This document shows positions 1 to 55,976 of a DNA stretch of 64,000 nt, piece by piece (the stretch's first letter is position 1; the number at the start of each line of letters is the position of its first letter). The notes below the pieces were generated by a model, which saw only the letters and a list, made by a program, of their open reading frames with translations, did no database searches and was not told where the DNA came from. Origin of the DNA: Clytia hemisphaerica (Eukaryota; Cnidaria; Hydrozoa; Leptothecata; Clytiidae); the NCBI GenBank assembly GCA_902728285.1, contig CACVBU010000293.1:23336-87335 (forward strand). The letters run 5' to 3'. Position numbers and translations under genes: made by a program.

Positions 1-162
1 TAATGCCAGAAGACATTGTAGTGATGCATATCATGAATATTGGAAAATTAAGTGAAAGTAAAGCAACGATACAGTATATATTATACAGGCCATTTTCAAG
101 GCCTTGTATTTGATGGATTGTTGTATTTAAGTGCTGTCAATCACTGATGACATAAGTATATA

Positions 163-391
163 CAGTGCAGTATGTCCGTAACAAAGCAAAATCCTCAAAA
201 AATCTTGTCATGATAAATGACCTACGTTGATTATTATTCTCTTACAAACCTAATTAAATTGTCTGGGGAATTAGATATCTTTTGAATAAGCAAAAAAATT
301 CTAGCATGCAATCGTTAATTCAAATCCCATAAGGCTAAGAATTTTGAGGATTTTAGGTATCAATTTGTGGTCGTTTTTTACGGACACACTG
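163..391. repeat. Mariner-like MITE with TA target duplication
   Basis: The ends are inverted copies of each other: left CAGTGCAGTATGTCCGTAAC, right (reverse complement) CAGTGTGTCCGTAAAAAACG, differing by a small indel. TA flanks both sides (161-162 and 392-393), as for Tc1/mariner-type insertion. There is no coding capacity. Confidence 0.6.
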
Positions 392-472
392 TACAGGTCA
401 GCCTGGTTCCGGGTGGATCTATTTGACACCGAGTTTAGTAATTTTTAATATCGCTATTTTTCTTACATACAG

Positions 473-751
473 GAACCAGGAACACGGGTCAGCTTGTGGA
501 TGCCCCCTGATTACCTTTATCTACGGCAACACGGTAAAATGTTCATTGATAAAAGTGTTAAAATGAATGAAGAAACAACAAAATGTCTGGGTTATCTCTA
601 TGATAAATACTCACTCACCCAAATCAGAGTGAGAGTTGCGTACGAAAGAATTCTGGAAACTAATGAGAAGAAGAAAAAAAGAAGGCAAAATGACTTGTTT
701 ATTGTACCGGTTAACATTATCGCAATAAATCTGTACAGGAGCATTCCATGA
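473..751 (+). CDS. Possible internal/terminal exon, unknown protein
   Basis: The reading frame opens directly after a good acceptor (cttacatacag, AG at 471-472) and runs about 92 codons to a stop. It starts EPGTRVSLWMPPDYLYLRQ and ends in a lysine/arginine-rich stretch (KKKKRRQND) after which coding character fades, so the true exon may end near 690. No family was recognised and no partner exon is visible in the window; upstream exons would lie beyond the left edge or in the first 470 bases, which hold a MITE. The mixed composition of the first 70 residues looks protein-like rather than random, but this is a judgement by eye. Confidence 0.3.
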   Translation, partial: EPGTRVSLWMPPDYLYLRQHGKMFIDKSVKMNEETTKCLGYLYDKYSLTQIRVRVAYERILETNEKKKKRRQNDLFIVPVNIIAINLYRSIP

Positions 752-1881
752 GATGCCACACGCGTAACGAAGTTTCTTTGATTTGTAAAGTGGTTGATTT
801 GTAAAAGGGTCTGAAATTAAAACCAAATTTTAAGGCTATTCTGTTTAATACGAACTAATTTTTAATACAAAAAGTTTCTTTGAAAAATTTCAAATGTCAT
901 TTTTGTTACGTGTGTGCCACCAACTCACGTTGGAATGTACTGTGAGTGTCTCGGTTGGGCTTTCTGTGAAATACAACCTGTGAAAGCAAAATGGAGAATT
1001 CCATTCGGGCAGACTGTCAGCAATAACAAACATTGTTAAATGTTATTATCTTAAGCAACTTTCAAAAACATCTGAGATGGAGAACATTAATTTCCATTTG
1101 ACCAGAAGACAATTTGCGATCAAAGCTATAGGAGTAGTGAAAGCTTTTACAATTTTAAAAATTATAAATACAAACATCGCATCTTGCAAGCTCCTTTATT
1201 GTTCCAAAAGGATCATTTTCTATTGCAAAAAAAATTACAATTCTTTTCAACTCCTTTGATGATTAAAAGGAAAGAAATTCCAAATTCAATTCTCAAGTGA
1301 CTTACGATAATAGTTTTCTTTTATAAAAGTTATCACAGTCAAATCAAGACACATTTTAGAACAATTCGATGTTTTCAAAAAACAGGCTCTCTCTCGTGAT
1401 AAGCTTGAGATGAATTCATGAAAACAAAACAGACTTTTTGTGCTACTTGATTCCACCACGGGAATTCAAACATATCTAGTTTGCTTAGTCCAGCTTTCTG
1501 GACTAGCTGCTATGGTTACCTTTGTTCTCAGTTGAATAGAACTGCGATTTGCTTTCACAGTGAGTATTACGAACTGTGATTATCACGGAAGTTGGAATGT
1601 TCATACAAAGCTTTGTTGGCAACGGAGTTGGTAAAGTGCAAACGATATCTTTTGAACTGTTACTGAAACATTTACACCATGAAATTTTATGATTTTTTTT
1701 TAAACATATACACATCCTCGGTAAGAGGTGTTAACGCGGTAGTATATATTTTTTTAGGTTGTATGTATAGTTAAACCGTGCAAAATATACGTTAAACCAG
1801 AAATATGGCAAAGAAAGATAGATTACGTCTATTCATCTTTTGTTCTCTAGGCTAGTCAACACTTTTTGTTCCTTTGTAACT
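752..1881. other. No gene seen; diverged dispersed repeat at 1230-1500
   Basis: No convincing exon. About 1,230-1,500 resembles 9,115-9,395 in the same orientation: both contain a run ending in Ttttataaaag, a later caaactctct/caggctctctc block, and a ttgatyccaccac motif. They are probably two old copies of one dispersed repeat. Confidence 0.45.
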
Positions 1882-2480
1882 GTCAGTTACGAGTAACTTA
1901 AAATTAGCCCATCATCTCGGAATATCAGCAATTTAGCCCAGAATGGGCAATTTAGCCCAGATTATATAGGAAAATTAGCCCATAATGAAGAAAAATTTGA
2001 TTTTTGAGCGAAATATTAATAGTCGCATTCTATAACTCCTCAGATTTGATTTTTAATGATTCAATCAATGTATATTCCAAATATTATCCCTTAATTAGCT
2101 CCAGAATGGGAAATATTCAATTTTTTCTAACTGCGCATGCTCGAGCATATGCGCAGTGAAACAAAATCAGAAAAAAAGCTTTCTGCACACGGCACTCAAT
2201 ATCTGAAAAATAGCCCATTATCGATTATTTAGCCCATCAGCTAATAATTCTTTTCTAGGAGCTAAACAGGAAAGATTTTTCAGTGGAGATTATTCTTTGA
2301 AACATGAAAAATTTGTTTCTGGCAAAAAAAAGATGCGACTACTAATATTTCGCTCAAAAATCAAATTTTTCTTCATAATGGGCTAATTTTCCTATATAAT
2401 CTGGGCTAAATTGCCAATTCTGGGCTAAAATTGCTGATATTCCGAGATGATGGGCTAATTTTAAGTTACTCCTAACTGAC
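1882..2480. repeat. Foldback/MITE element with ~130-bp terminal inverted repeats
   Basis: The left arm from GTCAGTTACGAGTAACTTAA is mirrored at the right end (TTAAGTTACTCCTAACTGAC). The arms stay matched for roughly 130 bases, through repeated TTAGCCCA words and a segment reading tcgctcaaaaatcaaattt. The loop is about 330 bases with no ORF. I could not identify a target-site duplication. Confidence 0.7.
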
Positions 2481-2730
2481 TGTTAATTTCAATTGTTAAA
2501 CAGCGTTTTCAGCCAATCAAAGTCAAGGATAACAAAACCTCAGTGCCAAAATCTTCGAGGCTGAGCCAAAAAAAAGTAATCATATATACGGAATCCTGGT
2601 AACCTATGCTACACAGAAAAATCTTTTTCATTTTCTAAATATTCCAGGAATTATTTTTTAGACCTTACGAGTGATAGTAAATAACACGCCCTAATTAGCC
2701 GATAAGTAGTGAACTATTTCGTTCTTTTGA

Positions 2731-2960
2731 CGTGAAGCGTTGGCTCAGTGTGGTTAGCACACTGGGTTTCTAATCATAGACACTTTGCATTTAGTGGGTT
2801 CGAACCCCGTAGGTATCAATTTTGAGCAAGGGGATTTTCCCCGACGAAAGTTTTCAACACAAATAGAAATTGAAACTTAATTTCTTAGTTTTAATCTAAT
2901 ACAGTGACCGTGTTTGAGGGTCGATCATCGTTATTTTCATCAACTGACATCTATTTCTTT
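2731..2960 (+). repeat. tRNA-like SINE head with Pol III A and B boxes
   Basis: An A-box-like word (TGGCTCAGTGTGG, 2741-2753) is followed 56 bases later by a perfect B box, GGTTCGAACCC (2797-2807). The spacing is longer than in most tRNAs, and the anticodon stem between them does not pair cleanly, so this is more likely a tRNA-derived SINE than a working tRNA gene. The tail runs into unrelated AT-rich DNA around 2,960. No poly(A) or target duplication was resolved. Confidence 0.55.
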
Positions 2961-3616
2961 CCATCAATCACAAAAACAAAATTTCGGGCGAGGATTAAAA
3001 AATCAGATAGGATTTTTGGAGGAGTGTTGAAAAGTACGGGGAAAATTTTGTAGAAACGATTCCAGGATTGCCTAGAAATACTTGCTGACATTAGCATTGC
3101 GGTATTTTCATTAAAATGTCATGTTGGAAATAAGCCAATTCGATACGACCGTGCTATGTGTATAAAGGTGTATGGCCATTTTCGTCTTTGAAAAAAGCAA
3201 ATACCAAAATAATCATCAAAATTTCAACAAAAAACACGCTCTTAAAAGTTTATCACATTTCCCTTTCTCAAAATTCGCTGCGCTTAGATACCGTGGAATT
3301 AGGCATGTGCCAATTTCTATTATAACTATCGGCAGAGCGTCTCAAGAAATCTCCTTTTTTATCATCACAGAAGAAGTGATTTCCTTTACCTCAGATTACA
3401 CAGTTCAATGTTCATTGTTGAACTGAGGGGAATCTCCTTCAAAACACAATTATTAAATATCCCACCTTGCCGCAGCCTTGAGCTACGGTAAATCTTGCGA
3501 TTTTTTTATACCGTATTATAGAAAAAACTCAACAGGAATCGTGTATCCATGGATTCATTATAGACACCGGATGAACATTAGGTTGAATTTTTTCTCAATT
3601 TTTCATGTTCTAGCTA
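2961..3616. other. No gene seen
   Basis: AT-rich sequence. Short open frames at 3,172-3,426 and 3,478-3,681 lack splice context and recognisable motifs and are treated as chance. Confidence 0.4.
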
Positions 3617-3959
3617 CTTTAGGGGAAGAGACTTTCGCGGAAAGAAACTTTCACGATTCATTAAATTTCCATTGTTTTTAACCCAGTTTTTTTTATGAAT
3701 ATCTTTGCAACAGGTGGCTAAAAACGCGGGCTTTCTTCGCACGCCCATCAAACCAAAATGTGTCCCAATATTGATTTTTAAGTCGGTCTGAATGAAATTT
3801 CAATACCAACCGTAAATTTTAGAAAAACATTATTTTCGCGAGAATTAACTTTCACGAATTAGCTTTTCAGAATTTTTCGCGTAATTAACTTTCACGAATT
3901 TGCCCAAAATTAGCGAAAATCGCGAAAGTTTCTTTCCGCGAAAGTTTCTTCCCCTAAAG
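3617..3959. repeat. TA-flanked MITE with CTTTAGGGGAAGA ends
   Basis: The left end CTTTAGGGGAAGAG and right end CTTCCCCTAAAG are inverted copies, continued inward by ACTTTCGCGGAAAG / CTTTCCGCGAAAG. TA flanks both ends (3615-3616 and 3960-3961). The internal sequence repeats gcgaaagtt/actttcgc words. Related short elements with similar ends occur at 10,618, 15,836, 22,380 and 60,792. Confidence 0.75.
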
Positions 3960-4313
3960 TATGTCCGCAGTAACGACATTATTGTTCACCCTCCTTCAGT
4001 GATAAAATATTATTTCGCTGCATAGTTGTATTGCCTTTTTACACTATAACGTTGCTTTTGAATTCCCAAATGAGACTTCAAGTCTTCCTCAGAGAAACAA
4101 AACCAAAAAACTAATTACTAACTACATCTCCTTGTGACGTTTCAAGTTGTGAGATAGATGCAACAGTCACGCTATCTATAAGAATCTGAACAGTTACACC
4201 AGAAAATTTTAGAATCACCTTGCCGCCGCGTGCCAACAATACCATGTGAAGCTAAGGTGCCCCGGTTTAGTATATGTGAAACCCAGCTCTTAACGACTTC
4301 ATCATCATCATCA

Positions 4314-5990
4314 TCATCTTTCGACCGCGGTCGAGATGATGGATTCCACCCTCTGGCGCCAAGAATCGCGGTCGCGCATGGCAGTCTCCAGGTCACTATA
4401 ATGAAGTCCAGTGTCCCTGCTAACTGCGTCAGTAAAAGTTAACTTTCTCGATCTTTGAACCAGCCGCTTGGGTTTCCAGAGTAAGAGAGAGGAGATGACT
4501 TCTGTGGATGCACGAAGGCAATGACCAGCAAACTGAACACGTCTAGCCTTTAAGATGTTTGAGATAGGCTTAATCAAACCATAGATGGTGTTTTCAGTGG
4601 GATGATCGCGCCAGGAAAGATTTTTAACTCTTCTTAGAAGGTGTGTGTATGTTCCATCGAGTTGTTTTTCTAATTTACGTGTGAAGGACCACGTTTCCGA
4701 ACCATAAAGAAGGATAGGTTCTATGGTGGATTTAAAAACTTTAATCTTAAGGTTAGAGTCAAGAAGAGAAGATGTCCAAATTTTGTGTAGTTTGTTACAC
4801 GCACTCCAGGCAAGTGCTTTGCGAATATTAAAATCTTTTTCAGATGACGAAATATAGGAGCCTAAGTATTTGTAATCGTCAACTTTCTTTAATTTGATTC
4901 CTGCAACAGTTCTGATACTTTCGGAAGGATCAATGGGATTGAGACTGAAAAACTCGGTTTTTGATTCGTTAAGATGTAAGCCTATGGAATTTGCAGCCGA
5001 TTCTAGTGCATTTAGTAATTTTTGAGCGTCTGAAAGCTTAGAACTGGTTAGAGCTATATCATCAGCAAAGTCTGTATCAGTGAGATAAGTCGCTGGACTA
5101 CGAGGCCCAAGTTTATGTTCAAGTAGAAAACCACATTGTGAGATTTTATCAACAGAAATACGCATGATGTAATCTACAACTAAAATAAAAAGAAACGGGG
5201 CTAGGGTATCACCTTGCAAGATACCTGCTAAGATGGGAAAAGTATCAGTCTCGCCGTCTGTAGTCTGGATAGAAGATTTGGTGTCTGTATAAAGAAGCTT
5301 GATGGCATTAATGATTTTCAAGGGAATGCCATATAGTGAGAGGATATCAAACATTTTATCTCGATCAACTGAATCGAAAGCTTTTTTTAAAGTCAACAAA
5401 TACAAGTATAGCGTCGAGATTGAAATTCCTGGCTTCTTCAAGTATGCGACGAAGGGATAGGATTTGTGTTAGTGTGGAGCGCCCACTACGAAAACCATTT
5501 TGGTTTTTACGAAGAATGGGTTCGACTTTAGACCTAATCCTATTGAGTAAAAGTTTGTTGTAAATCTTGGCCGCTATTGGAAGAAGAGATATACCACGAT
5601 AGTTAGTGGCAAGAGTGAGGTCTCCCTTTTTCGGAACAGAAATGATATGAGATTTTAGCCAATGATTTGTGCAAACATTTTCTTCGAACGCGATATTACA
5701 GAGATTAAGAAGGAAACTGTGGAAGTTTTCGTCTTTCCAGATAATAGGTGGAATGTTATCTGGACCGAAAGCTTTACAAGATTTAGTTTGGGAAAGGACC
5801 TTTGTTAATTCTTTTAAAGTGAAAGGAGAAAGAGGAATGTCCAAAGGCGGAGATATTTGTTCCCTGGGTAGAGAATTATTTTCAGAGAGAATTGGCTTTT
5901 TGCCAAGAAGATTTTTAAAATGATTGAGCCAATTATCTAGACGTTTCGCAGTGGATCCGCCTTTTAATTGAATGGGGGGTTTCGAATTTT
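4314..5990 (-). pseudogene. LINE reverse transcriptase, frameshifted
   Basis: Continues the endonuclease ORF. Finger/palm motifs appear in order: LKSHIISVPKKGD, NYRGISLLP, QNGFRSGRST, then VFVDFKK and KAFDSVDR, a GILQGDTLAPFLF motif, and the catalytic FADDIAL. The break between DFKK and KAFDSV falls in a run of seven A (minus strand, near 5,385); with six A the frame would be continuous. The C-terminal region after the palm (YGSETWSF, RRVQFAGHCLR) is the usual LINE thumb/linker. The product would copy the element RNA at a nicked chromosomal site. As assembled it is not translatable in one piece. Confidence 0.75.
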
Positions 5991-6008
5991 TTCCACTAAG
6001 CTCTCTGA

Positions 6009-7481
6009 CTAGGCTCCATGCATTTCGATAGAGTTATGCGAGAAGTATTCAGACATGGAGTTTATCTTGCCGTTTATAAAGGATATTTCGGCTTCTAGGT
6101 AGGCCTCGTCAAGTTTAGCTTTGCAAGAATCTAAATTTGCCTTTCGCCTGCGCTTAGGGACATTGTTGTAGAGAGATGCTGCAAGTTTGAGATTTTCTCT
6201 TGCTGCAATGACAGACGGGATGTCTTTCGAGTTTGAGATGTTTTCTTTTCTTTTCCTAGGAAGCTGCTCGAGAGCTATTTTTTCAGTGGTTTCAATCAAA
6301 CTGGAATAAGCATCTTCAATGTTGTCTTTATTTAGATCCTCAATGAAAAGATGAGAAAAGCGGTTATATACTTCGACAGTAAATCTGTTACGGATTTCAG
6401 GATTGAGAGAAGATTCCTTCCAATCGATTTTCTTCAGAGGGTGTGGCTTCGAGTGTTTTGATGCACGAAGGCTCAATTTGATATTTGAGGAAACAATACG
6501 ATGATCAGAGCTAACAGTGGAGAATGAGGAATATGCCCTGGAGTCTTTAATACTATTCCTCCATTTTTTACCAAAGAGAATATAGTCAATTTGAGCTTTA
6601 TCGCCATTTGGATATCGGAATGTCCAAAGGTGATTGGCACATTTCATGAAATAGTTATTTGAGGAGAAAAGGCCGTATTCATCAATCAGATCTAAGAGGT
6701 ATTCGCCATTGCGATTAGTGTGCTTATTAAAGGAGAAAGAGACATCGGGACATGCAAGCTTCGCATTAAAGTCACCCGCAATGCTTATGAAATTATGTCT
6801 TGGTATATCGTCGAGTACATTTTTAAGTTCCAAATAGAATTCCTCAACTTCCTCTTTGGGGGCGCTATTGTGTGGACTATAGACACAAATAACTGATAAA
6901 ACTGGATTGCTTGAGAACTCAGCAATCAAAATTCTAGGCGTGATAGATTCTACCTTAATCAAGTTATTTTTAGCTTTGGAAGAAAGAAGAAGACCTACTC
7001 CTCCCACCGTAGTATTAACAGAGTTTTTGGTTGCTGAAGATGTAATAAGTTGAAAAGTAGAGTTTGAAGAATACATAAGGTTATCAGCAGGGTGAAAAAT
7101 GCGATGTTCTTGGATTGCAATCATGTCTATGGAATTTTCAGACATTGAACGCACGAGCTCGTTTATTTGTGTAGGTCCATTCAAGGTTCGAACATTGAAA
7201 GTACTAATTTTCAAGAGATTGGTACATCTCAGTAATTTGTTTTGTTTTGGGTGATCAGGTTCTTTCTTGTCAGAAGAAAACCTCCCCAAGGAACTGGGGG
7301 TGAAGATCTCTCCATCATTGGATCCCTTTATGGTATCAAAGAGAGAAAAATGATCGATAAAATCAGGGGCTTGCCCGGGGATCAAGGGCGTGTCCTGAAG
7401 GACTACCGATTGATCCCGGACCCTGGTGCTGTTTGGTGTAGAATCCATTATCTTTTCAATTGCTAAAATAGTGCTGCGCAA
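6009..7481 (-). pseudogene. LINE ORF, apurinic endonuclease part (frameshifted at 3' end)
   Basis: The translation shows the exonuclease/endonuclease/phosphatase fold motifs in order: KISTFNVRTLNG near residue 90, IDMIAIQEHR with the catalytic Glu, SIAGDFNAK near 240, and SSDHRIV near 325. These match the N, E, DxN and DH signatures of LINE AP endonucleases that nick target DNA. The frame ends at 6,009 within IEMHGA, but the next frame reads AWSLVRELSGKN across the same bases, so a 1-nt loss around 6,020 has split the ORF. The first 80 residues are polar and may be LINE 5' sequence rather than domain. Confidence 0.75.
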
Positions 7482-7510
7482 CGGCTACATACCCATTTTC
7501 CCATGGGTGG

Positions 7511-15150: not shown

Positions 15151-18100
15151 CTGAAAACGAAGCATCGATCGCATCTTCCAACTCTTGCTTTTCTTTTTTC
15201 GACAGGTTGCAAGGCATGCCTGGTAGATGTTTTTTATGTGACCCGCTATCGTGTGAAGTGGCTCTACTGGCAAAATTTCGTAGTCTTCAAGACCAACATC
15301 TTTCAACTCTGTCTTCCGGGATTCGTACAAAAATGCAGGCAGATGGTGTATTCCAGTCATTTCGTTGTCGTATTTTCCTTTCAACACGTCTTTATTTTCG
15401 CCCTTTGTGAATTTAACCTCGCGTTGGTGGAGCTCACCGATGATATCCGGCTTGGTGATTCTTTCGGCAGGATTTACGATGCCGTTTACGATCGATTGTC
15501 TTCCGTAGCTAAAAGAAAGATAATGCTATGGGAGTTGTTTGTGATTCAATCATGAACACCGGGAACACGGGAGAAAACAATTTGATGAAATATTTGCAAT
15601 AAATAATATTTTTTGATCGAAATAAAAATTATCTTACTGTGTCATTGTTAGCTTGTCTATCCTCTCTTGCACTGTCTGCCGCTCGCAATTCAACAAATGG
15701 GCCAAGTCTTTCCCTCTTGATGCTTTCATAGGACAATGCCAACAAAAATGATTACCCCCATTTTGCTGTCCTGCCTCAAGTTGACAGGCAGGGGCATCTC
15801 CTATAATATGAAAAAATCTAATGAACAATGTTATACTTTAATGAGATAAACTTTCGCGGCTGGTACTATTGGGTGTCAATATTTTAACGGTTTTGTGACT
15901 TTCACTGTCAAATCATACATGTTGGTTGTTAAAACACATTATTTGCGCCTCTTTGATGCAAGTAACCATTCAAAAAGTATTTATTTGACATATTTTGAGT
16001 TTTGTTTAGATATATTTCGCGGATTTTTCCAAATTTCCACTGGGTCTTAATTTCACCGATTCTCGAGGATGACACCCAAATCCGCGAAATTTAATCAACG
16101 TGAAAGTTTATCCCATTAAACACCTCAAAGCAACTCGGGTAATAAGTTAAGCAGATACTCAATATGTGAAAAAATTGGTTTCTAAATTTTTTACTAGTCC
16201 GAGATGATGTAAAATGCCTTTAATTATGAGTAACTTGTGGAAACTCCCACAGATCTGTAAAGCCCGAAGGGCTAGATTTGCGGCTTTTATCGAAAAGTGA
16301 AGCTTAGGTTTGGAAGGATTTCCTACCAAAGTCACGTGACTAAAATATGCAATTTCACCGGTTTGAGAGATGTGAAATAGCGTTTGCCGCCTACTTTGTT
16401 TGATCTCGCACTGCGAAAATTAAAATTCTAGATCCTATCCATCGGCACGAAATTTAAAAAGTCAAATTTTTGCTTCACTTTTTTTTGCTGGAGAAAGCTT
16501 AAAGTTGCGGTTTGTGTAATTTACGATGCGCGATCCAACGATTCACGATGCACGATGCACGATCTATGCATGATTTATGTTAATTATTCTAATTATGCAC
16601 GAATAAGTTTTCATAATTTAAAATTATATCTTCTGTGTAGGAAAAACAAAAATTGATAGCAAGAGAAAGAAAATGTTCGCCGCATGCCTCACTCGTTTTT
16701 AAAATGAAAGAAAAAGCCTAGACGTCATAGAAAAGTTTTGGCGCGAAAAATTTATCAAAACACAAACTCATTTTTGTACGTTTATTATTTTTTTAAGAAC
16801 AGTGAATAAGGTAAAAAAGGAATTACTGGCTACACTACTTTCGGCATGTTCTTATAAAAGCCTTTCACCAACTCAATGGCAACTGGTGCTTTTATTTATT
16901 TGATCTTTTTCTTTGTTTGATGATCAAGTTAATTCATTTGATCTTTCTCAAAAAAGGTGAGTTTATACACGCGCTCTTCATTAAAAAACGTCTTCCCTAC
17001 TTTACCACAACATTGTAAATTTTTATTTATAACCCTGTCTCAATGCAATGCATTTGGTTGGTTTAATCGGAGAAACGTTTTTTTTTAAGAAAGAAAAAAA
17101 GTTTATGTTTTGATGTGATTTGATTGTTGAGGTTAAATTATATACGCGCATACTTTACACTTATTTTCCAGGAATACAAAAGAAGGAATTAAAATATGTG
17201 ATTACTAAAACCTGTAAATGCATAACTAGAATAATTAACATAATATATGCATGGATCGTGCATCGCGCATCGTGAATCGTTGGATCGTGCATCGTAAATT
17301 ACACAAACCGTTAAAGTTGCCTATCTAGCCCTTCGGGCTTTACAGATATCTGTGTAAATTCCTCGTTTTTCAGACTGACCTTTGAAAAATCTCATTTTGT
17401 CCTTAAACGAGATTCCATTACTAAATATGTAAGGCTGATTGTTGATTCTAATGTAATCTTCCAATCGTTCATTGCCATAACAAAGTTGCAACGCAGATGC
17501 GGGACATCTCGCCAAAATATAAGTAACAGGTTTCTCCACCATTGCCTTCACCGAAACTCTATATTCTAAAATACACAGGAAGAAACATTAAGCTCCGCTT
17601 AATCTTACTTCACCTTCAAAAGCCCCGAAATCTTGCGACAAAAACCCCGTTTGCAGGAACGGATTTGGTCGTCAAGGGAGACTTAATTGAGATTAAAGCC
17701 CCTAGATGAATCTTCAACCTTTCTCAAGCAAGAAATAGTGAAAGAATTGCGCCTCGTTTAGAATGACTGATCAATTCTAACTATAACACCTTCTTTTTTT
17801 TTCACGAGGGCATATTTTCGAAATCTGGCAATATGTTTCACTTTCAATCTATATAGCGTTTGTTTTTAAAAACTACGCGGGTCATGCTTTTAGGGTGAGA
17901 AATAAGTGCGGCTTCATTTACCATCCAGTAGTTTAGAGTCTAGCTCTTCGGGCTTGGTAGTCTGATATAATTATCAGTGCTCTTATTTTTGTTGGCTACG
18001 AAATCTGGAAAAGGCAATTTAATTTACGCGTAATGACTTTAACTAGGGTATTCAATGTCACGTCAAAAGACAGAATTTTTTTGCTAGTGAATGCGAGGTG

Positions 18101-32575: not shown

Positions 32576-32934
32576 TAATGCTTTCCATAGATGTTTTATT
32601 CGGCCTGGAGAAGTGTTGTCTACCCTGTCTACACTCAAAAAAATCATTTTTCCTTGAAAAAAAAAATTCAATTGTAAACTCTCTAAATAGCGTAGTGAAA
32701 CATTTCACATACTCTAAGGGTTCAATTCAATAGACTTAGGATAACAGTAGGTATAACCCATTTTCATACATATCAACAAAAACAAGAGACACTTTTATGG
32801 ACCTACCTGGTTATCAGAAGAACATTGAACATTTAATTAAAAACCGTTTTACATTGAAAAGTAATGAAATTGATGTGCTTATATAATCAAATACCTTTCA
32901 ACCGTTTCACTTTTTGTCGGTTAGTGTAAAACGC

Positions 32935-32975
32935 AGGTCACAGGTCACAGGTCGCAGGTCACAGGTCATAGGTCA
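32935..32975 (+). promoter_or_regulatory. Array of six AGGTCA half-sites, 1-bp spacing (DR1-like)
   Basis: AGGTCA at 32,935, 32,942, 32,956, 32,963 and 32,970, with AGGTCG at 32,949. Each neighbour is one base apart, the DR1 geometry bound by RXR/HNF4/COUP-type nuclear receptors. The sequence is certain; any binding is inference. Confidence 0.55.
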
Positions 32976-33017
32976 ACAAAGTGCAGACCGGAAAAAAAAA
33001 ATAAGATCATAACATAT

Positions 33018-33356
33018 CCCGGGGGGGGCACTGGGTTTGTGGACTGACGGTATGTGCGGGCCAAAAATTGGCTTTTGAAATTGCACCCTTACAGTGCAGC
33101 AAAAATCAATGAAAATCATACCCTTAGAGTGCACTTCACCCCAAATTTTCGATCCCTTTCGTGCAAAAAATGGTCAAAATTCTAGCATTTTTGGTCAAAA
33201 TATCTAGATTTTTCAAGAATTTTCTGAAATTTCTACCCTTACAGTGCATCTCTAGTTTTTCCGACCCTTACAGTGCATTTTAAACATATTGGAAAAGGTA
33301 CCCTTAGGACCCGCACATACCCGTCGGTCCTTTTGCCCAGCTGCCCCCCCCCCGGG
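33018..33356. mobile_element. 339-bp element with G/C-tract ends, 8-bp target duplication
   Basis: Starts CCCGGGGGGGGCACTGGG and ends with an inverse CCCAGCTGCCCCC-type tract through CCCGGG. TAACATAT flanks both sides (33,010-33,017 and 33,357-33,364). Internal repeats of accttacagtgca-type words (cccttacagtgcag, cccttagagtgcac). It is nested in the AGGTCA-ended element, so it inserted later. Confidence 0.8.
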
Positions 33357-34332
33357 TAACATATACATAACATAACATCAATACATAGCGCATTAAATTA
33401 CAAAAAAGTAATACATGCTATTTAGATATTATAAAATGACAATTGAATAGAATAACAACCTATTTTGATATAGTGACACTTACTTACAAAAATAATGACA
33501 AAATCATAAAATATGATGCCTTGCAAGACAAAAGCACGGAAAATATTTATTATACAAAATGTGATGTGGATGGTGTGAATGGATATAAAATGGCACCAAA
33601 CAGAAGCTTGCAAGGACCCTAAGAGAGTGGTTTTAGAAGGATGGAACTAATTAATTATTCAGTTATTATTTTAATGTCTTAATGACAACTTTTTGACAAA
33701 AATATTAACAGAATCATAAAATATGATGCAAGAACAGACAAAAAACGAAAAATATTTATAATTCAGAATGTGATGTAGATAGTGTGAATGGAAATAAAAT
33801 GGTACCAATCAGAAGCTTGTGAGGTCCCTAAGAGAGTGGTTTTAGAAGGATGAAACTAATTAATTATTCAATTGTCATTTTAATGACTTAATGACAATTT
33901 TTGACAAAAATATTGACAGAATTACAAAATATCATGTCTTACAAGAGAAAAACACCAAAAATATTCAGCATGCCGAATGTGATGATAACAATATGGCTGG
34001 ATATAAAATTACACCAATCAGAAGCTCGTGAGTTCTCTGAGAAGTTAGTTTTAGAGTGATTTGTTTTATTATATGTAACCATCATATAACATTACAAACA
34101 TTACAATATGTAATATACCTGTTATACGTATAATATGGTTTCAAATATTTTCTGGTCTGCATTATACACGGCACAAACTGCGAAAGATCGATAAAAGCAC
34201 ATGGTTAAATTTTGATGTTTTAAATGGTTTTATATGGATGAAATTGCTTGAGAATTATGTTTTTGATAATTCTTTGTGTTTTCCAAACATTTTCCTCTGC
34301 AATGACATTGTTTAGAGTTAACCTGTCATCAC

Positions 34333-34373
34333 TGACCTGTGACCTGTGACCTGCTACCTGTTACCTGTGACCT
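34333..34373 (-). promoter_or_regulatory. Mirror array of AGGTCA half-sites, 1-bp spacing
   Basis: On the plus strand TGACCT occurs at 34,333, 34,340, 34,347 and 34,368, with CTACCT at 34,354 and TTACCT at 34,361, all on a 7-bp grid. It is the inverted counterpart of the left array and part of the right TIR. Confidence 0.55.
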
Positions 34374-34392
34374 GCGTTTTACACTAACCGAC

Positions 34393-35261
34393 TTTTTGTT
34401 CCAAGTTCTCAATGATGGATGTCGACATGTGCACTGTAAAAACCCCAAATTAAATTAAGTAAATGATTACTAGTAAAATTCTTAAAATAAGAAATAAATT
34501 ACTTATTTTAGGATTTGAACAAAATCGTCAGAAATATTCAAAATGATATTCTTAAATTTAGAAAACTTGAAGTAATCATGAGACTGTTAGTGATTTTTTT
34601 CTTAAAATAAGAATCAAGCAATTTTTAAAAGGCTTTGCAAATTTTTCATAAAAAATAGGAAACTTTGTTATCATCAATGGTGCAGTTGGTGGAAGAAATG
34701 GTCAGATGATGGATAATATTTGTACGGTTATTTGAATCGTGAATAATGTCTTTCCAATAGGAACGTTAAAATAGAATAATACAGAACAAATTAGAGTAAA
34801 GAATATCATAGAATAATGAATGAGAATAAATAAAAGTGAGTTGATAAAATATTTGAGTGCAGACAAATTCCATGAAAATGTCCAAAATGAGTGCAAAATG
34901 AGTAAAAACGACAACGTCGAGAAACATAGGCTTTAGGTTAAGTAGTTTGTATAAGTACTTATGAGGCTACTTGCGTCGAGACTTGAAAACTTTTTGGAAA
35001 TCATGTTCTAGGGGTTTTATACTGAAAAAACGTCATAGGAAATTGGTCCGAAAGGGTCCAAAACTTGTCCATTTGATGGGGTTTTTTCTGGTTACACATG
35101 ATACATCGAGAGACTTCTGTACCAAATTTCAGCCACATTATATTTTTTTCCTTTACCTTTTATTTCCCTTACCTTTTTTGAGCTAGTTTCCATACTAAAG
35201 CTGTCAAGGAAACGAGTATTTTGCATTTTTTCAAATTGTTCACCCCTATAATCATTTTATA
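34393..35261. other. No gene seen
   Basis: AT-rich. Around 34,432 the phrase gcactgtaaaaacccc resembles 43,285-43,305 (cactgtaaaaaacccgg), a possible repeat end. Confidence 0.4.
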
Positions 35262-35343
35262 ATGACCCCCCCCCATTTTATGAATTTTCTCCTGGAGTAG
35301 CCACACCCTGCTTATTCGACCCCTCCCCCTACAATTACGCACA
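35262..35343. repeat. Half-copy of the TACTCTTCCGTGC MITE family
   Basis: ccccccattttatgaattttctcc and ccctacaattacgcacaac match the right half of the family. The repeat supplies the last residues and stop codon of the minus-strand gene that ends at 35,335. Confidence 0.6.
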
Positions 35344-38300
35344 ACTTCTTACTTTCTCTGCTGATAAAAAAATAACAAGGAAAGGATATGTTCTTTCTAG
35401 GTTACAATTAATTATATCACCTAAAAAATATTTAGTTTGAATAAAATTACGATCAAAACCACTTTTTAAATGAAAAACGTTGTAGTCCAGTAAAGATTCA
35501 TACGGTACTATTGATGTTTCATCCTTCTGTTCAACTTCATATGCTTGAAAATCCTGGTCGAAGCTAACGGTACGAAAATTTTGAATTTCAAAATAAAGAT
35601 AGCTATGGACAATGTTAATTTGACTGATCTTTCCAAATAAAGGTAACTTCTCTTGATTAATACCTACTGCTAAGACGGCTTCTCGAGAGTACTTTGTTCC
35701 AAACCGTACAACCCAGCTGGCCTTGAAGGCCTTATTATCAAACTCAATACCCGGTAAAAAGTTTTTTTCGTTGAATCTGTTTCTCAAAATAACTTTTTCA
35801 TCTTGAGAAAGGGGCTTGACTACACCATTCTGCTGTTCCTTATTAAACAAGGGGTGCGTCGAGCTTCCTTCAGAGTTATCTCCGTAATTTGCAGTGTCAA
35901 GATATTGGTGACGGTTGGCCAAGGACAAGGGGAGATTTTTGAAATTCTGGGATTTCGCCAACGATTTAAAATATTTATGAGCTGCCTCAAAGCTGTAACA
36001 TGAGTACCTAATGGGAGGACCTAATTCCTCTATCGAGTTCATGAAGTGCAGCATATAATTATGTTTTGGTAGGATGTTTTCAACTGGAAACAATTGCTTA
36101 AATTGTTTTAAATGGTTTGGAAGTCTGATTTTTAGCAATGCAATAGTGTCCTTTCCAATGACTGGAGAAATCAAAATTTGACAAATTTCGTTTAAATCTA
36201 ATATGAGCTTGACAAATTCACTTTCAAACCCTACCAAAGAGCCCACCAAAAATGGAAAAAGTCTTAAAAAGAGTCGTGCTTGATCAGCTTCAAACTTCAA
36301 CTTGTATCCACTGGTCTCGAAAACACTATCTCTTATTGGAGGAGGCTTTGAAGACATCTCAGAGTAACCATAAGAATGATTAGAAATAGAGCCATTGACA
36401 GTAGCTAAAGTTGTCATTTTTTGATTGTATATGAGTTCCTTTAAAACAAGTCGCATCTCATATTGAACGGTTCCCTCAAATAAAATGTGCATTATATCCT
36501 GTGGGAACTGGATAACTACATCAAAATTTGGTGGCCTACACAAAGGACTTCTTTGATTAATACCATATGCGATTTTTAAATTATTTTGAAGTTCACCGGT
36601 TGCATTCTCAATCTCATCACAATGTTTATTATAAAGTTCTTGTGTTCTTTGTTTTATTTTAGATAAGTCAAAAACTGTTTGTAATGTTTGAAAATCGCAT
36701 AAGCAATGCCGACACTTTTGAAAGGCACCACCAACTCCTTCTTTAAATCCACCCCACAAATGCTGACCTAAAGTGTCCCCTAGGCAAATTACGACTTTTC
36801 CAAAAACAGTTAGATCGTTATTATTTAAGTTCATTACATGCCCATTGTACAGTAAAATCAAGTCGTCAATTATAGGTGATAAAATTTTCCCGATTCCGTA
36901 CTTTTTGACATGTGCTGCTGGAGCAATAGCCAATAATTGAACAGCACAGACTCACGAACGATATTTGGGTGAGATATTTGCAACACAATAATAATACATG
37001 TCAATTTTGTATTTTGTAGCAGCGCTACCAAGCGGGCTACAGATTTCAAGTTCATCATGAAACAACATTAAATCAAGCGCATCAGGGTGTTCTTTAAAGA
37101 ATTCATCACTTGTGTACGTAGATCCATCAAAAATGTCATAATAATACCCATTTCCAGTTAAGTGGGGTTTCCTTATGATGAGAGATGCTATTCTAGCATT
37201 ATTAAGCATTTGCTCAAGTGTTTCTAAAATTGGTACATACATAAATGTTTCCTGTTTTTCTGTCAAGAAAAATTCATTCTTCTTACGCTTTCTTTTTAAA
37301 ATGTTTCCAAGAGCTACCTCAACAGGTTTAACATGAGAGAAATTAGACTTGATGAATGATTTATGTTGAGCTTCGGTTGATAATCCATCAAAAATATCTG
37401 CCCCTTCTTGAAATATTTCATTCAGTTGTGCAACATTTTCATGTTCAGTTATATCAAGTTCTTGCATAACTTTAGTTGTTTTCAAAATTTCACAATGCTG
37501 AGCAACAAGACATGCAACATTATCCTTGATGGTTTCCATTGTACCCTGAAAAAATAAAAATAAGTACCTTATTAATATATGTTTGCAGGAGTAATTTTCG
37601 AGTAATATTCAATGTCATGTTGAAAGGAAGAGACAACTCTCACCCACTTTTAGGTAAATTTTAGTTTACACCCTAGGGGAAGCAAAACTCGTGTTGGATG
37701 AAGCGAAATTTCAGGTTTGTGGGACTTCTTTACAAAACCATTCGAACGATAATTAGTTCATTCATTCTTTCAAAACAAAATGGCGGCCGAGAAAAGAAAT
37801 GCAGTAATGGTGGTGTTGCTCAACGAGCTCGTCGATTCAGACGATGAAAAACCAACTAGAGGAAAAACTAGAGAGTGGATTAGGAGAAGGGAGCAAAAGG
37901 GATATTTCCACAATATTGTCCTGGAGCTAAAAATCGAGGACAGACTTGGCTTCAGGAAAATGTTTCGAATGGACAACATTTTAAAACATTCCATCATCAA
38001 ATTCGAACGTTTCATTGTTCGAAATTCGCAGCACTTTGACATGTTGGAAGAAAAGTACCACCAAACCAATCCAACACGAAAAATTACACAATTCAACGAG
38101 AGAGCTTCTTTGATCTTGCCGCAAATGTTGGATGAAATGTTTGATGGCGATCAAACTTCATCCAACACCGTCCAACACGATTTTTTTCTTCTTTTTTTGA
38201 ATTTTCATTTTTTTCCAAAAATTTGAATTGACGCAAACCGGTCCAACATTTCATCCAACATCAGAAAAAAGGCATGTTGGATGAAATGTTGGATCGGTTT

Positions 38301-41886: not shown

Positions 41887-43285
41887 AGTAGATTTGAGAA
41901 CAATTCGCCGACGGTTATTCTGTTCAATAAGGAACAAGTTAAGAACATTGCTAAATTCTGTTCATCACCGTTAGATTATCAGGCGTCTGGTCTGTCCTTT
42001 GCTGTGATATGACATTTAACATTGGAGATTTCTGGGTGGTCATAACTACTTATTCCAATCTGATGGTCTTTTCAAAGAAGTACGGCCGACCGGTTACTGG
42101 AATTGGTCCAGTCATGATTTGTAAGACAAAGTCAACCAAACAGTATTCGTCGTTATTTCACGCAATCACAACTGAGGATCCTGATTTAAAGGTGTCTTTG
42201 AGAGCGTTTGGTCAAGGTGGTGAGAAAGCTATATTTGAGGCCAACTAACTGGAATTCCCTTTCGCGATTGGCTTCATATGCTCAATTCACATCCGACGAA
42301 ATATGGATGAGTACATCCATTCAACCTTGCATCTTAGCGAATCGTGTCTCCAGGTCGTCGTAGCTGATGTCTTTGGCTCGACTCGTCAAGAAGGGTTGTA
42401 CCATGCATGTACACGCACTGAATTTGACGAAAATCTGGCTCGGCTCAAAAATAGGTGGAATGAGCTGGAGACGAAAGAGAGGAAGGAAAACAACATGCCA
42501 GAACAGCCTAAATTTTTCACTTATTTCAAGAAAAATAAGGCTGAAACTGTTTACCACTACTGTCGGCAAATGGTAGTTATAGAAGCTAACATCTATCAGC
42601 ACAATCGATTTTCGACTAACGCAACGGAGTCGATAAACAAAGCAATAAAAGTTTGGCAAGAGAACCACAAGGATGACATGCCTGGATTCATTGTCTCCTT
42701 GCAACAATTTGTCCAGAGCCAACGAAATGAAGAAACCGTTGCTTAACAAGTCGTCTGACACCTTAATGGTCAACCCTAATTATCGGGAGTATATTGTTAC
42801 AGATTATGAAGGAAAATCAGGTGAAACTTTTCATTCAACCTTCTAAGATTTATTAAAAATTCTTACTCTCTTTATCTTTTCTTTTTGCGCCGACGTCTTG
42901 TCTGAATTTAATCATTTTAATAGTGGATTTTTGATCCTTAAGAACCAGAGTGGAACTGTTTGAAAGAAGAATGTATTTAAAGACTTAATGAGGGTGCGAA
43001 TTACAAAATTTGGACCTAAACTTGACGGCCTTTTCAAATTTACATCTAAGAGGATTATCTTTTATCTAAAATGCCTTTTCGAGAAGAAAATTATAAGACT
43101 TAACCATTTTAGCCTGCAATGATTAATCTCTATGCATTGATTTTATTATTTTTTTAGCCGCCGAGAAAACTCGCATAGAGAAAAACATCATTTTGTCAAT
43201 CCCACTTAAAGCTGATTCTGTTGCATTGGAAACCACCAACTCAACGAAAATTCCTGAGGAAGAGCCATTTGACCTAAGCCCATTA
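41887..43285 (+). pseudogene. MULE transposase gene, two exons, decayed
   Basis: Exon 1 (41,887-42,820, after acceptor ggtctag) and exon 2 (from 43,158, after tttttttag) join in phase (TCA-G/CC-GCC). The product carries a MULE-type DDE domain: SGLSFAVDMTFNIGDFWVV (first Asp), YGRPVTGIGPVM, LKVSLRAFGQGGEKAIFEAN, then FPFAIGFICSIHIRRNMDEY and a NATESINKAIK segment with the late Glu. Breaks: one base missing between GTG and ATATG at about 42,007; an in-frame TAA at 42,246-42,248 before LEFPFAI; and a frameshift near 42,720 between QSQRNE and MKKPLLNKSS. Exon 2 (AAEKTRIEKNIILSIPLKAD) ends in a repeat at about 43,285. The enzyme would cut and paste Mutator-like elements; a Mutator-like MITE is at 16,508. 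Confidence 0.75.
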
Positions 43286-53769: not shown

Positions 53770-55520
53770 TGGGTTGAATTTGCTAGTCCAAAATCAGACC
53801 AAATCTTTGGGAAGATGCGGTGGACATTCTTACCAAATTTTAGTTGACAGTGGCCCGGCAGTCAAGAACTATTGATTTATCTCTCGGGAAATTCGCTTGT
53901 CCTAAATCATACCAAATCTCCGGAAAAATGCAGTGGTAAAAATGGAAGGAAATATTTGAGACATTCTTACCTAATTTTAGTGACCGTGGCTCGGCCGTCA
54001 AGAATTATTGGTTTGTCTCTTGGGAAATTGCTAGTTCAAAATCAGACCAAATCTTCAGGAAATGCGGTGGTAAAATTGGAGGGAGATAGTTGAGACATTC
54101 TTACCTAATTTTAGTTGACCGTGGCTCGGCCGTCCAGAATCATTGATTTGTCTCTGGGGAAATTCGCTTGTCCAAAATCATACCAAATCTCCGGGAAAAT
54201 GCAGTGGTAAAAATGGAAGGAAATATTTGAGACATTCTTACCAAATTTTAATTGACCATGGCTCGGCCGTCCAGAATTATTGATTTGTCTCTGGTGAAAT
54301 TTGCTTGTCCAAAATCATACCAAATCTCTGGGAAATGCAGTGGTAAAAATGGAAGTAAATTTTTGTGAAATTCTCACCAAATTTTAGTTGACCGTGGCTC
54401 GGCCGTCCAGAATTATTGATTTGTCTCTGGGTAAATTCATTTGTCCAAAATCATACCAAATCTCCGGGAAATGCAGTGGTAAAAATGGAAGCAAATGTTT
54501 GTGACATTCTCACCAAATTTTAGTTGACCGTGGCTCGCCCGTCCAGAATTATTGATTTGTCTCTGGGGAAATTGGCTTGTCCAAAATCATACCAAATCGC
54601 TGGGAAATGCAGTGGTAAAAATGGAAGCAAATGTTTGTGACATTCTCACCAAATTTTAGTTGACCGTGGCTCGGCCGTCCAGAATTATTGATTTGTCTCT
54701 GGGGAAATTCGCTTATCAAATATCAGATCAAATCTCGGGGAAAATGCGTGGTAAAATTGAACGGAGATATTTGAGACATTCTCACCACATTTTAGTCGAC
54801 CGTGGCTTGGCTTTCCGGAATTATTGGTTTGTCTTTGGGGAGATTCATTTGTCCAAAATCAGAGCAAATCTCCGGGAAAATACGGTGGTAAAATTGAAAG
54901 GGGGATATTTGAGTCATTCTTACCAAACTTTAGTTGAACGTGGCTCGGCCGTCCAGAATTATTGATTTGTCTCTGGGAAAATTTGCTAGTCCAAAATCAG
55001 ACCAAATCTTCCGGAAAATGCGGTGGTAAAATTGGAGGGAGATAGTTGAGACATTCTTACCAAATTTTAGTTGACCGTGGCCAGGTCGTCCGGAATTATT
55101 GATTTGTCTCTGGGGAAATTCGCTTGTCCAAAATCATACCAAATCTCCGGGAAAATGCAGTGGTAAAAATGGAAGGAAATATTTGAAACATTCTCACCAA
55201 ATTTTATTTGACCGTGGCTCGGCCGTCAAGAATTATTGGTTTGTCTCTTGGGAATTTCGCTAGTTCAAAATCAGACAAAATCTCCAGGAAAATACGGTGC
55301 TAAAATTGAAAGGGGGATATTTGAGACATTGTTACCAAACTTAGTTGACCGTGGCTCGGCCGTCAAGAACTATTGATTTTTCTTTCGGGAAATTTGCTTG
55401 TCCAAAATCATACCAAATCTCCGGGAAAATGCAGTGGTAAAAATGCATTTGAGACATTCTTACCAAATTTTAGTTGACCGTGGCTCGGCCGTACAGAATT
55501 ATTTTTTTGTCTCTGGGAAA
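53770..55520 (+). repeat. 136-bp satellite array, ~13 copies
   Basis: The marker gaccgtggctcggccgtc (with variants) recurs at 53,981, 54,117, 54,254, 54,390, 54,526, 54,662, 54,798, 54,936, 55,073, 55,210, 55,348 and 55,476, a period of about 136. Other shared words are agaattattgatttgtctct, atcataccaaatctccggga and atgcagtggtaaaaatgga. Open frames inside are periodic artefacts. Confidence 0.9.
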
Positions 55521-55976
55521 ATAGTTATTAACCCGAGGGGGTACTAGGGCAAAATGGGTTACGGGATGCGCCGCTGGTCAGGGTACCTTTTTTAACCTCA
55601 ATGAGTCCCAGGTAGGGTTGCAAAAAGACCAAAATAGAAAAATCAGTCCCTCTTAGGGTACCATTTTTGGAAAATTTGGGGGAAAAGTAGAAAATGTGAG
55701 AACATTTTGGAGTTTTGGTCACATTCAGAATAATAACGTTCATTATAACAGAAAGAACGCTCAAAATGGAAAGTATTGTCTCTATATAGAGGTTATAGGA
55801 GAATTTTGAAAGACAAGACAAGCGGTCGCACGTTTGTGATAATGTTGCCAGACGCTTAAAGCATGCGGCCAAACGTTTGTGATTTTTCCAAATGTGCAGC
55901 CGGACGATAAGAAACGCGGTCGGACGTTTAAAACAGAACACAAACACACTTGTCTAAATCAGTCACGGTAATTTAC
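55521..55976. other. No confident gene
   Basis: The minus-strand open frame at 55,528-55,947 shows no recognised motif and has repeat-like flanks. Confidence 0.4.

Follow-up and report, generated by a model that had tools for sequence, protein, structure and literature searches.

AGGTCA-type tandem arrays in the ends of an abundant transposon family of Clytia hemisphaerica

Introduction

Transposon ends that join a short terminal motif to short tandem repeats are known from Muta1 of Aedes aegypti. According to the available part of the source, Muta1 and other mosquito Mutator-like families have 8–9 bp target-site duplications and short subterminal tandem repeats, and non-autonomous derivatives in which repeat number varies also occur (PMC5225508). 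The family described here shares these traits but differs in that its repeat unit is 7 bp long and lacks a linker, and in that its ends span only ~58 bp. The Mutator/foldback element Tm1 of root-knot nematodes is similar in its 9-bp duplications, its composite ends, in which a motif is repeated a variable number of times, and its mostly MITE-like copies; in the sections at hand it is distinguished by a ~14-bp motif, four-domain ends, and a known transposase (PMC3169594). The foldback elements Tetris and Galileo likewise carry tandem repeats of changing copy number within their ends, although, in the accessible text, both the ends and the repeats (~210–220 bp) are far longer, and Galileo differs further in its P-type transposase and its duplications of 7 bp (PMC4079207, PMC3573991). 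Tandem repeats of this kind have been proposed, in the part of the Galileo literature available, to serve as secondary transposase sites (PMC3573991).

A different precedent is the DR2 of Alu, a mobile repeat that has spread consensus receptor direct repeats. There, as far as the available text goes, a single DR2 lies in the body of a SINE and binding was shown by ChIP (PMC1785376), whereas the arrays reported here lie in transposon ends and are known from sequence. A search of the open-licence literature returned no paper that brings AGGTCA together with terminal inverted repeats and transposons and, as far as titles and the openings of abstracts indicate, none that describes transposon ends bearing receptor arrays.

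Results and Discussion

Structure of the window copy

The window, a 64,000-nucleotide stretch of C. hemisphaerica contig CACVBU010000293.1, contains a transposon copy of 1473 bp at 32,918–34,390, a nested insert included. Its inverted arms (32,916–32,975 and 34,333–34,392) are 60 nt long and 95% complementary. Each has a 17-base terminal motif, CGGTTAGTGTAAAACGC (32,918–32,934, plus strand; 34,374–34,390, minus strand), followed directly by six units with an exact 7-bp period. The left array (32,935–32,975, plus strand) is of the AGGTC(A/G)C type and reads AGGTCA, AGGTCA, AGGTCG, AGGTCA, AGGTCA, AGGTCA; the right array (34,333–34,373, minus strand) reads, going inward, AGGTCA, AGGTAA, AGGTAG, AGGTCA, AGGTCA, AGGTCA. 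Our recount thus agrees with the first-pass annotation, which had reported six AGGTCA-type half-sites per terminal inverted repeat on a 7-bp grid, five perfect on the left and four on the right. The same annotation placed a transposable element at 32,916–34,392; the element stands, but its boundaries move inward. Since the first two bases of those outer ends (GT...AC) differ among genomic copies, they belong to the target-site duplication, which is therefore 9 bp long (ACTTTTTGT; 32,909–32,917 and 34,391–34,399) and, at this locus (L005 in the genome set), identical at 9/9 positions.

The perfect DR1 sequence AGGTCANAGGTCA, allowing up to two mismatches, matches the window 12 times against 3.46 expected, a count equalled by 0 of 100 shuffles, and nine of the 12 matches fall in this element. 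The window has two occurrences of the 20-base end (0 expected), and inward extension of the inverted repeat was at chance level (90 of 1000 shuffles). Tandem repeats (209 bp, 2.7 copies) occupy 33,486–34,055 of the interior. Between the left arm and these repeats another element, 339 bp long and bounded by G/C-run inverted ends, is inserted (33,018–33,356), flanked by an 8-bp duplication, TAACATAT (33,010–33,017 and 33,357–33,364). The site is empty in three other copies (L003, L012, and L030), which read straight across an uninterrupted TAACATAT. Once the insert and the 8 bp duplicated with it are subtracted, the window copy measures ~1126 bp, like several others. The element contains no long open reading frame: in a listing of frames of at least 40 aa, the longest lying wholly inside it, with an ATG, GTG, or TTG start, has 63 aa.

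Other repeats and frames lie elsewhere in the window. Two adjoining minus-strand frames of 538 and 218 aa at 35,335–37,608 gave no significant Pfam match. Frames of a non-LTR retroelement lie on the minus strand at 4314–7484, with an endonuclease domain in 6009–7484 and a putative reverse-transcriptase part recognized by look only. A 136-bp tandem array of 12.5 copies spans 53,823–55,522.

Copies and subfamilies

In the 417-Mb genome (951 contigs), the exact 20-base end is found at 10 places (control, 0), and the end with up to three mismatches at 378 + 372 places, against 48 + 57 for the reversed pattern. This settles the question, raised at first pass, of whether the element is multi-copy: the family is abundant, with hundreds of copies. 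The window copy is non-coding. About 100 of the 750 end places were listed, and copy-level counts below are among the matches listed. In 32 distinct two-ended copies, the window copy included, the 9-bp duplications agree at 9/9 positions in 25, 8/9 in four, 7/9 in two, and 3/9 in one, the best-matching right end having been used where a locus held several.

Subfamily A copies are 88–98% identical to the window copy over the best stretch, while subfamily B keeps the ends but is only 66–75% identical in the interior. A variant C (L008 and L033) has a palindrome-like end, CGGTTTGTGTAAACCGC, and AGGTTAC units. The long copies L032 (5.9 kb), L033 (4.4 kb), and L034 (2.1 kb) contain no frame above 139 aa. 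In L033, a C-type copy (3016–4143) is nested in an A-type copy (103–4490), each with its own 9-bp duplication. Locus L043 holds two 916-bp B copies in inverted orientation on one contig (80–995 and 4958–5873), flanked by duplications CCGGTGTGA and its reverse complement; this pair is either a real duplication in inverted orientation or an artefact of the assembly.

Length and conservation of the arrays

Array length ranges from one to ten units in the 106 array-bearing ends among the matches listed (2, 4, 6, 11, 12, 50, 8, 2, 10, and 1 ends, respectively); seven fuzzy end matches without an array were left out. Tandem repeats whose number varies between copies are a foldback trait, although the long inverted ends that fill much of a foldback element are absent here, each arm taking up 60 of 1473 bp. 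The dip at eight units and the rise at nine, together with the order CA CA CG CA CA CA (the last two half-site bases of successive units), suggest that the arrays may have grown in steps of 21 bp, and a 21-bp higher-order pattern is present. Twenty-one base pairs correspond to two turns of DNA.

Such freely varying unit numbers, with a higher-order period, would be expected if the arrays were functionless minisatellites grown by slippage beside the true recognition sequence. Ends with only one or two units are, however, just 6 of the 106 among the matches listed, and six is the usual number in both this family and a second one described below, the array in each adjoining the inner side of the end motif. 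The comparison of subfamilies bears on the same point. Across 40 A–B pairs (8 × 5), identity is 98.8% in the end motif, 95.5% in the array, and 64.7% in the next 160 bp; the corresponding values are 100%, 98.4%, and 96.3% within A and 97.6%, 97.9%, and 88.6% within B. The copies for this comparison, nine of A and five of B, were hand-picked, and one A copy (L028), in which the anchor motif was not found, was dropped. Because ends were retrieved by their match to the end motif, the conservation of the motif itself is not evidence, and only the contrast between array and interior is informative. Judged by this contrast, the array appears to behave as part of the terminal block, being kept while the adjoining 160 bp diverge, which makes a minisatellite origin unlikely in our estimation. 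Homogenization among the repeats could, however, also produce array conservation between subfamilies.

The first-pass annotation had asked whether the half-sites exceed the remainder of the terminal repeat in conservation, and they do not. Over 498 units among the matches listed, the commonest base accounts for 93.6, 99.0, 98.6, 98.8, 95.2, and 80.7% of half-site columns 1–6, and the spacer is C in 492 (98.8%). Base 6 varies more than any other column, with A in 402 of the 498 units among the matches listed. Within subfamily A (370 units), no column is as fixed as the spacer (99.5%). In subfamily B (114 units) it reaches 96.5%, above base 1 (74.6%) and base 6 (95.6%) and below bases 2–5, and variant C contributes only 14 units to these counts. 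The innermost unit of each array was excluded since its seventh base falls outside the array. Units were accepted at four or more of six matches to AGGTCA, a rule that favors the half-site columns and so renders the spacer result conservative. The flank outside the half-sites, just inside the left array, is 92–100% conserved per column (39 ends). With flank and spacer about as fixed as the half-sites, the latter are not singled out.

The variation at base 6, which is mostly between A and G, could also be taken to mean that perfect AGGTCA arose in part by CpG decay of AGGTCG, a route that the accessible text describes for Alu DR2 (PMC1785376). Decay would be expected to yield AGGTTG about equally often, but AGGTTGC is rare, with three units against 239 of AGGTCAC and 62 of AGGTCGC (75 ends). 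Furthermore, the order CA CA CG CA CA CA is common to 31 of the 106 ends among the matches listed, which indicates that it was inherited instead of decaying copy by copy. We do not favor this origin and regard it as very unlikely.

A sister family with a different unit

An 803-bp element with ends CGGTTTGTGTAATTT lies at 16,508–17,310 of the window, flanked by a perfect 9-bp duplication, TTAAAGTTG (16,499–16,507 and 17,311–17,319). Its arms are 121 nt long and 84% complementary, and each carries six 7-bp units of the ACGATGC type, the second of which is followed by a single additional base. The end motif CGGTTWGTGTAA, with up to one mismatch, has four matches in the window (0.41 expected), which are the four ends of these two elements. 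Genome-wide, the sister pattern CGGTTTGTGTAATTTACGATGC (up to two mismatches) marks 133 + 137 places, or 270 ends, with a control of 0 + 0. Among 25 distinct end pairings, the duplications agree at 9/9 positions in 19, 8/9 in four, 5/9 in one, and 2/9 in one, the last being an outer pairing that spans two elements.

The end motif CGGTTWGTGTAA, the 9-bp duplication, the 7-bp grid, and the number of units are common to both families, while the AGGTCA letters are not. With the architecture the same and the unit letters different, the design is the transposon's and not that of AGGTCA, and the repeats most likely function in transposition itself. The alternative already raised at first pass, that the array is a transposase-binding repeat with no link to receptors, therefore fits better than a receptor role, since the sister family places the unrelated unit ACGATGC on the same grid.

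Superfamily and candidate transposase

The 8–10 bp target-site duplications of Mutator-like elements (MULEs) are found in both families. The long inverted ends of MULEs, typically >100 bp, are absent from the main element, whose arms are 60 nt; those of the sister element measure 121 nt at 84% complementarity. Two of 14 mosquito families have ends below 60 bp according to the available part of the source (PMC5225508), so long ends are typical of Mutator-like elements but not required. The ~58-bp ends nevertheless count against this assignment, as does a 7-bp unit shorter than the 9–15 bp given in the same partial source (PMC5225508). The 9-bp duplications of both families do not fit PIF/Harbinger, a superfamily considered on account of the DDE_Tnp_4 gene in the sister copy L086. 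Elements of that superfamily make 3-bp duplications.

None of the scanned window frames or fetched copies gave a transposase proper to these ends. Pfam searches of ten window frames found one protein with assigned families, of the endonuclease/reverse-transcriptase type, and a search of seven window frames at a loose threshold gave only weak matches below the cut-off. A MULE-like assignment of 42,249–42,746 gained no support at that threshold and was dropped. Rfam gave 0 matches. The only transposase gene in a fetched copy belongs to another superfamily: a 4.2-kb sister copy (L086) has a DDE_Tnp_4 frame (E 8.7e-36) as well as one that is Myb/SANT-like (E 8.7e-10). The segment that carries both frames (781–3772 of the element; 841–3832 of the locus) has its own inverted 9-base ends, GTCACACTA, and is missing from the short sister copies, whose sequence it interrupts; it is thus probably nested or cargo and not the source of the transposase. 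A further copy, L087, carries an unrelated insert near the same point.

Viral contigs gave 0 matches to the end pattern and no match to the window protein at 35.3 kb, and prokaryote contigs gave 0 matches. A pure AGGTCAC array matched one phage contig (L001, at and around 1029–1055), which has no such ends and was set aside as an unrelated short tandem repeat.

On balance, the main element is probably a high-copy non-autonomous cut-and-paste DNA transposon of the Mutator/foldback type, whose arrays are putative transposase-binding repeats. Its defined CGGTTWGTGTAA ends, 9-bp duplications, and hundreds of end places argue for this assignment, as do a variable-number 7-bp array within the terminal block, 95.5% array identity between subfamilies whose next 160 bp are only 64.7% identical, and a sister family with another unit. 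A transposase supplied in trans would cut at the CGG ends and stagger the target by 9 bp, and the 7-bp units may be its secondary binding sites, repeated in tandem so that it binds more strongly. Mutator-like and foldback elements are described as organized in this way (PMC5225508, PMC3169594, PMC4079207, PMC3573991). The transposase of each family would read its own unit, AGGTCRC in the main family and ACGATGC in the sister family. The spacer of subfamily B, which at 96.5% (114 units) is surpassed by half-site columns 2–5, fits this less well. If the arrays are transposase sites, their resemblance to DR1 is a coincidence.

Receptor binding as an alternative

The arrays may instead be, or have become, sites of the HNF4/RXR/COUP type, through which the element would spread receptor-responsive sequence or exploit receptors to gain access to open chromatin. 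Of the 106 array-bearing ends among the matches listed, 101 have one or more perfect DR1s (AGGTCANAGGTCA), and receptors able to bind could be present in the host, whose genome has 14 zf-C4 exon matches at 11 places; for one of these DNA-binding domains the closest solved structure is HNF4-alpha (E 7.5e-34). The Alu DR2, with binding seen by ChIP, is a precedent for the spread of receptor sites in the portion of that paper available (PMC1785376). A DR1 under receptor selection would, however, have constrained half-sites and a free spacer, and here the spacer equals the half-site core in conservation while base 6 is the least fixed. Moreover, the fixed base is C, a disfavored DR1 spacer that weakens PPAR/RXR binding and dimer formation in the accessible part of the source, though other receptors may differ (PMC4524655). 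The sister family also has the same design without AGGTCA. We consider a receptor role quite unlikely, although incidental binding to the arrays is possible, as the host encodes nuclear receptors, one of them HNF4-like.

The first-pass suggestion that the element scatters ready-made receptor sites therefore holds in part: perfect DR1 sequence has been spread through a genome that encodes receptors, but a receptor function is at odds with the C spacer and with the sister unit ACGATGC. A bolder version would see a modular transposon group with a constant terminal motif and exchangeable six-unit 7-bp arrays, one of which converged on, or was taken over as, a host HNF4/RXR-type DR1 site, so that receptor-bearing cells would bind hundreds of copies. 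Going by the sequence comparisons, we rate it a long shot.

Conclusions

The observation is real and multi-copy, and is best read as ordinary transposon end architecture that is receptor-like in look. Its most interesting part is the pairing of two families that differ by a swap of the 7-bp unit: two abundant families in one genome, with the same design and different array letters, amount to a natural experiment on the co-evolution of transposases and end repeats. They also show that a receptor-like motif can arise from transposon architecture instead of gene regulation. Should the arrays be bound by host receptors, the main family would have seeded the C. hemisphaerica genome with hundreds of strong DR1 clusters.
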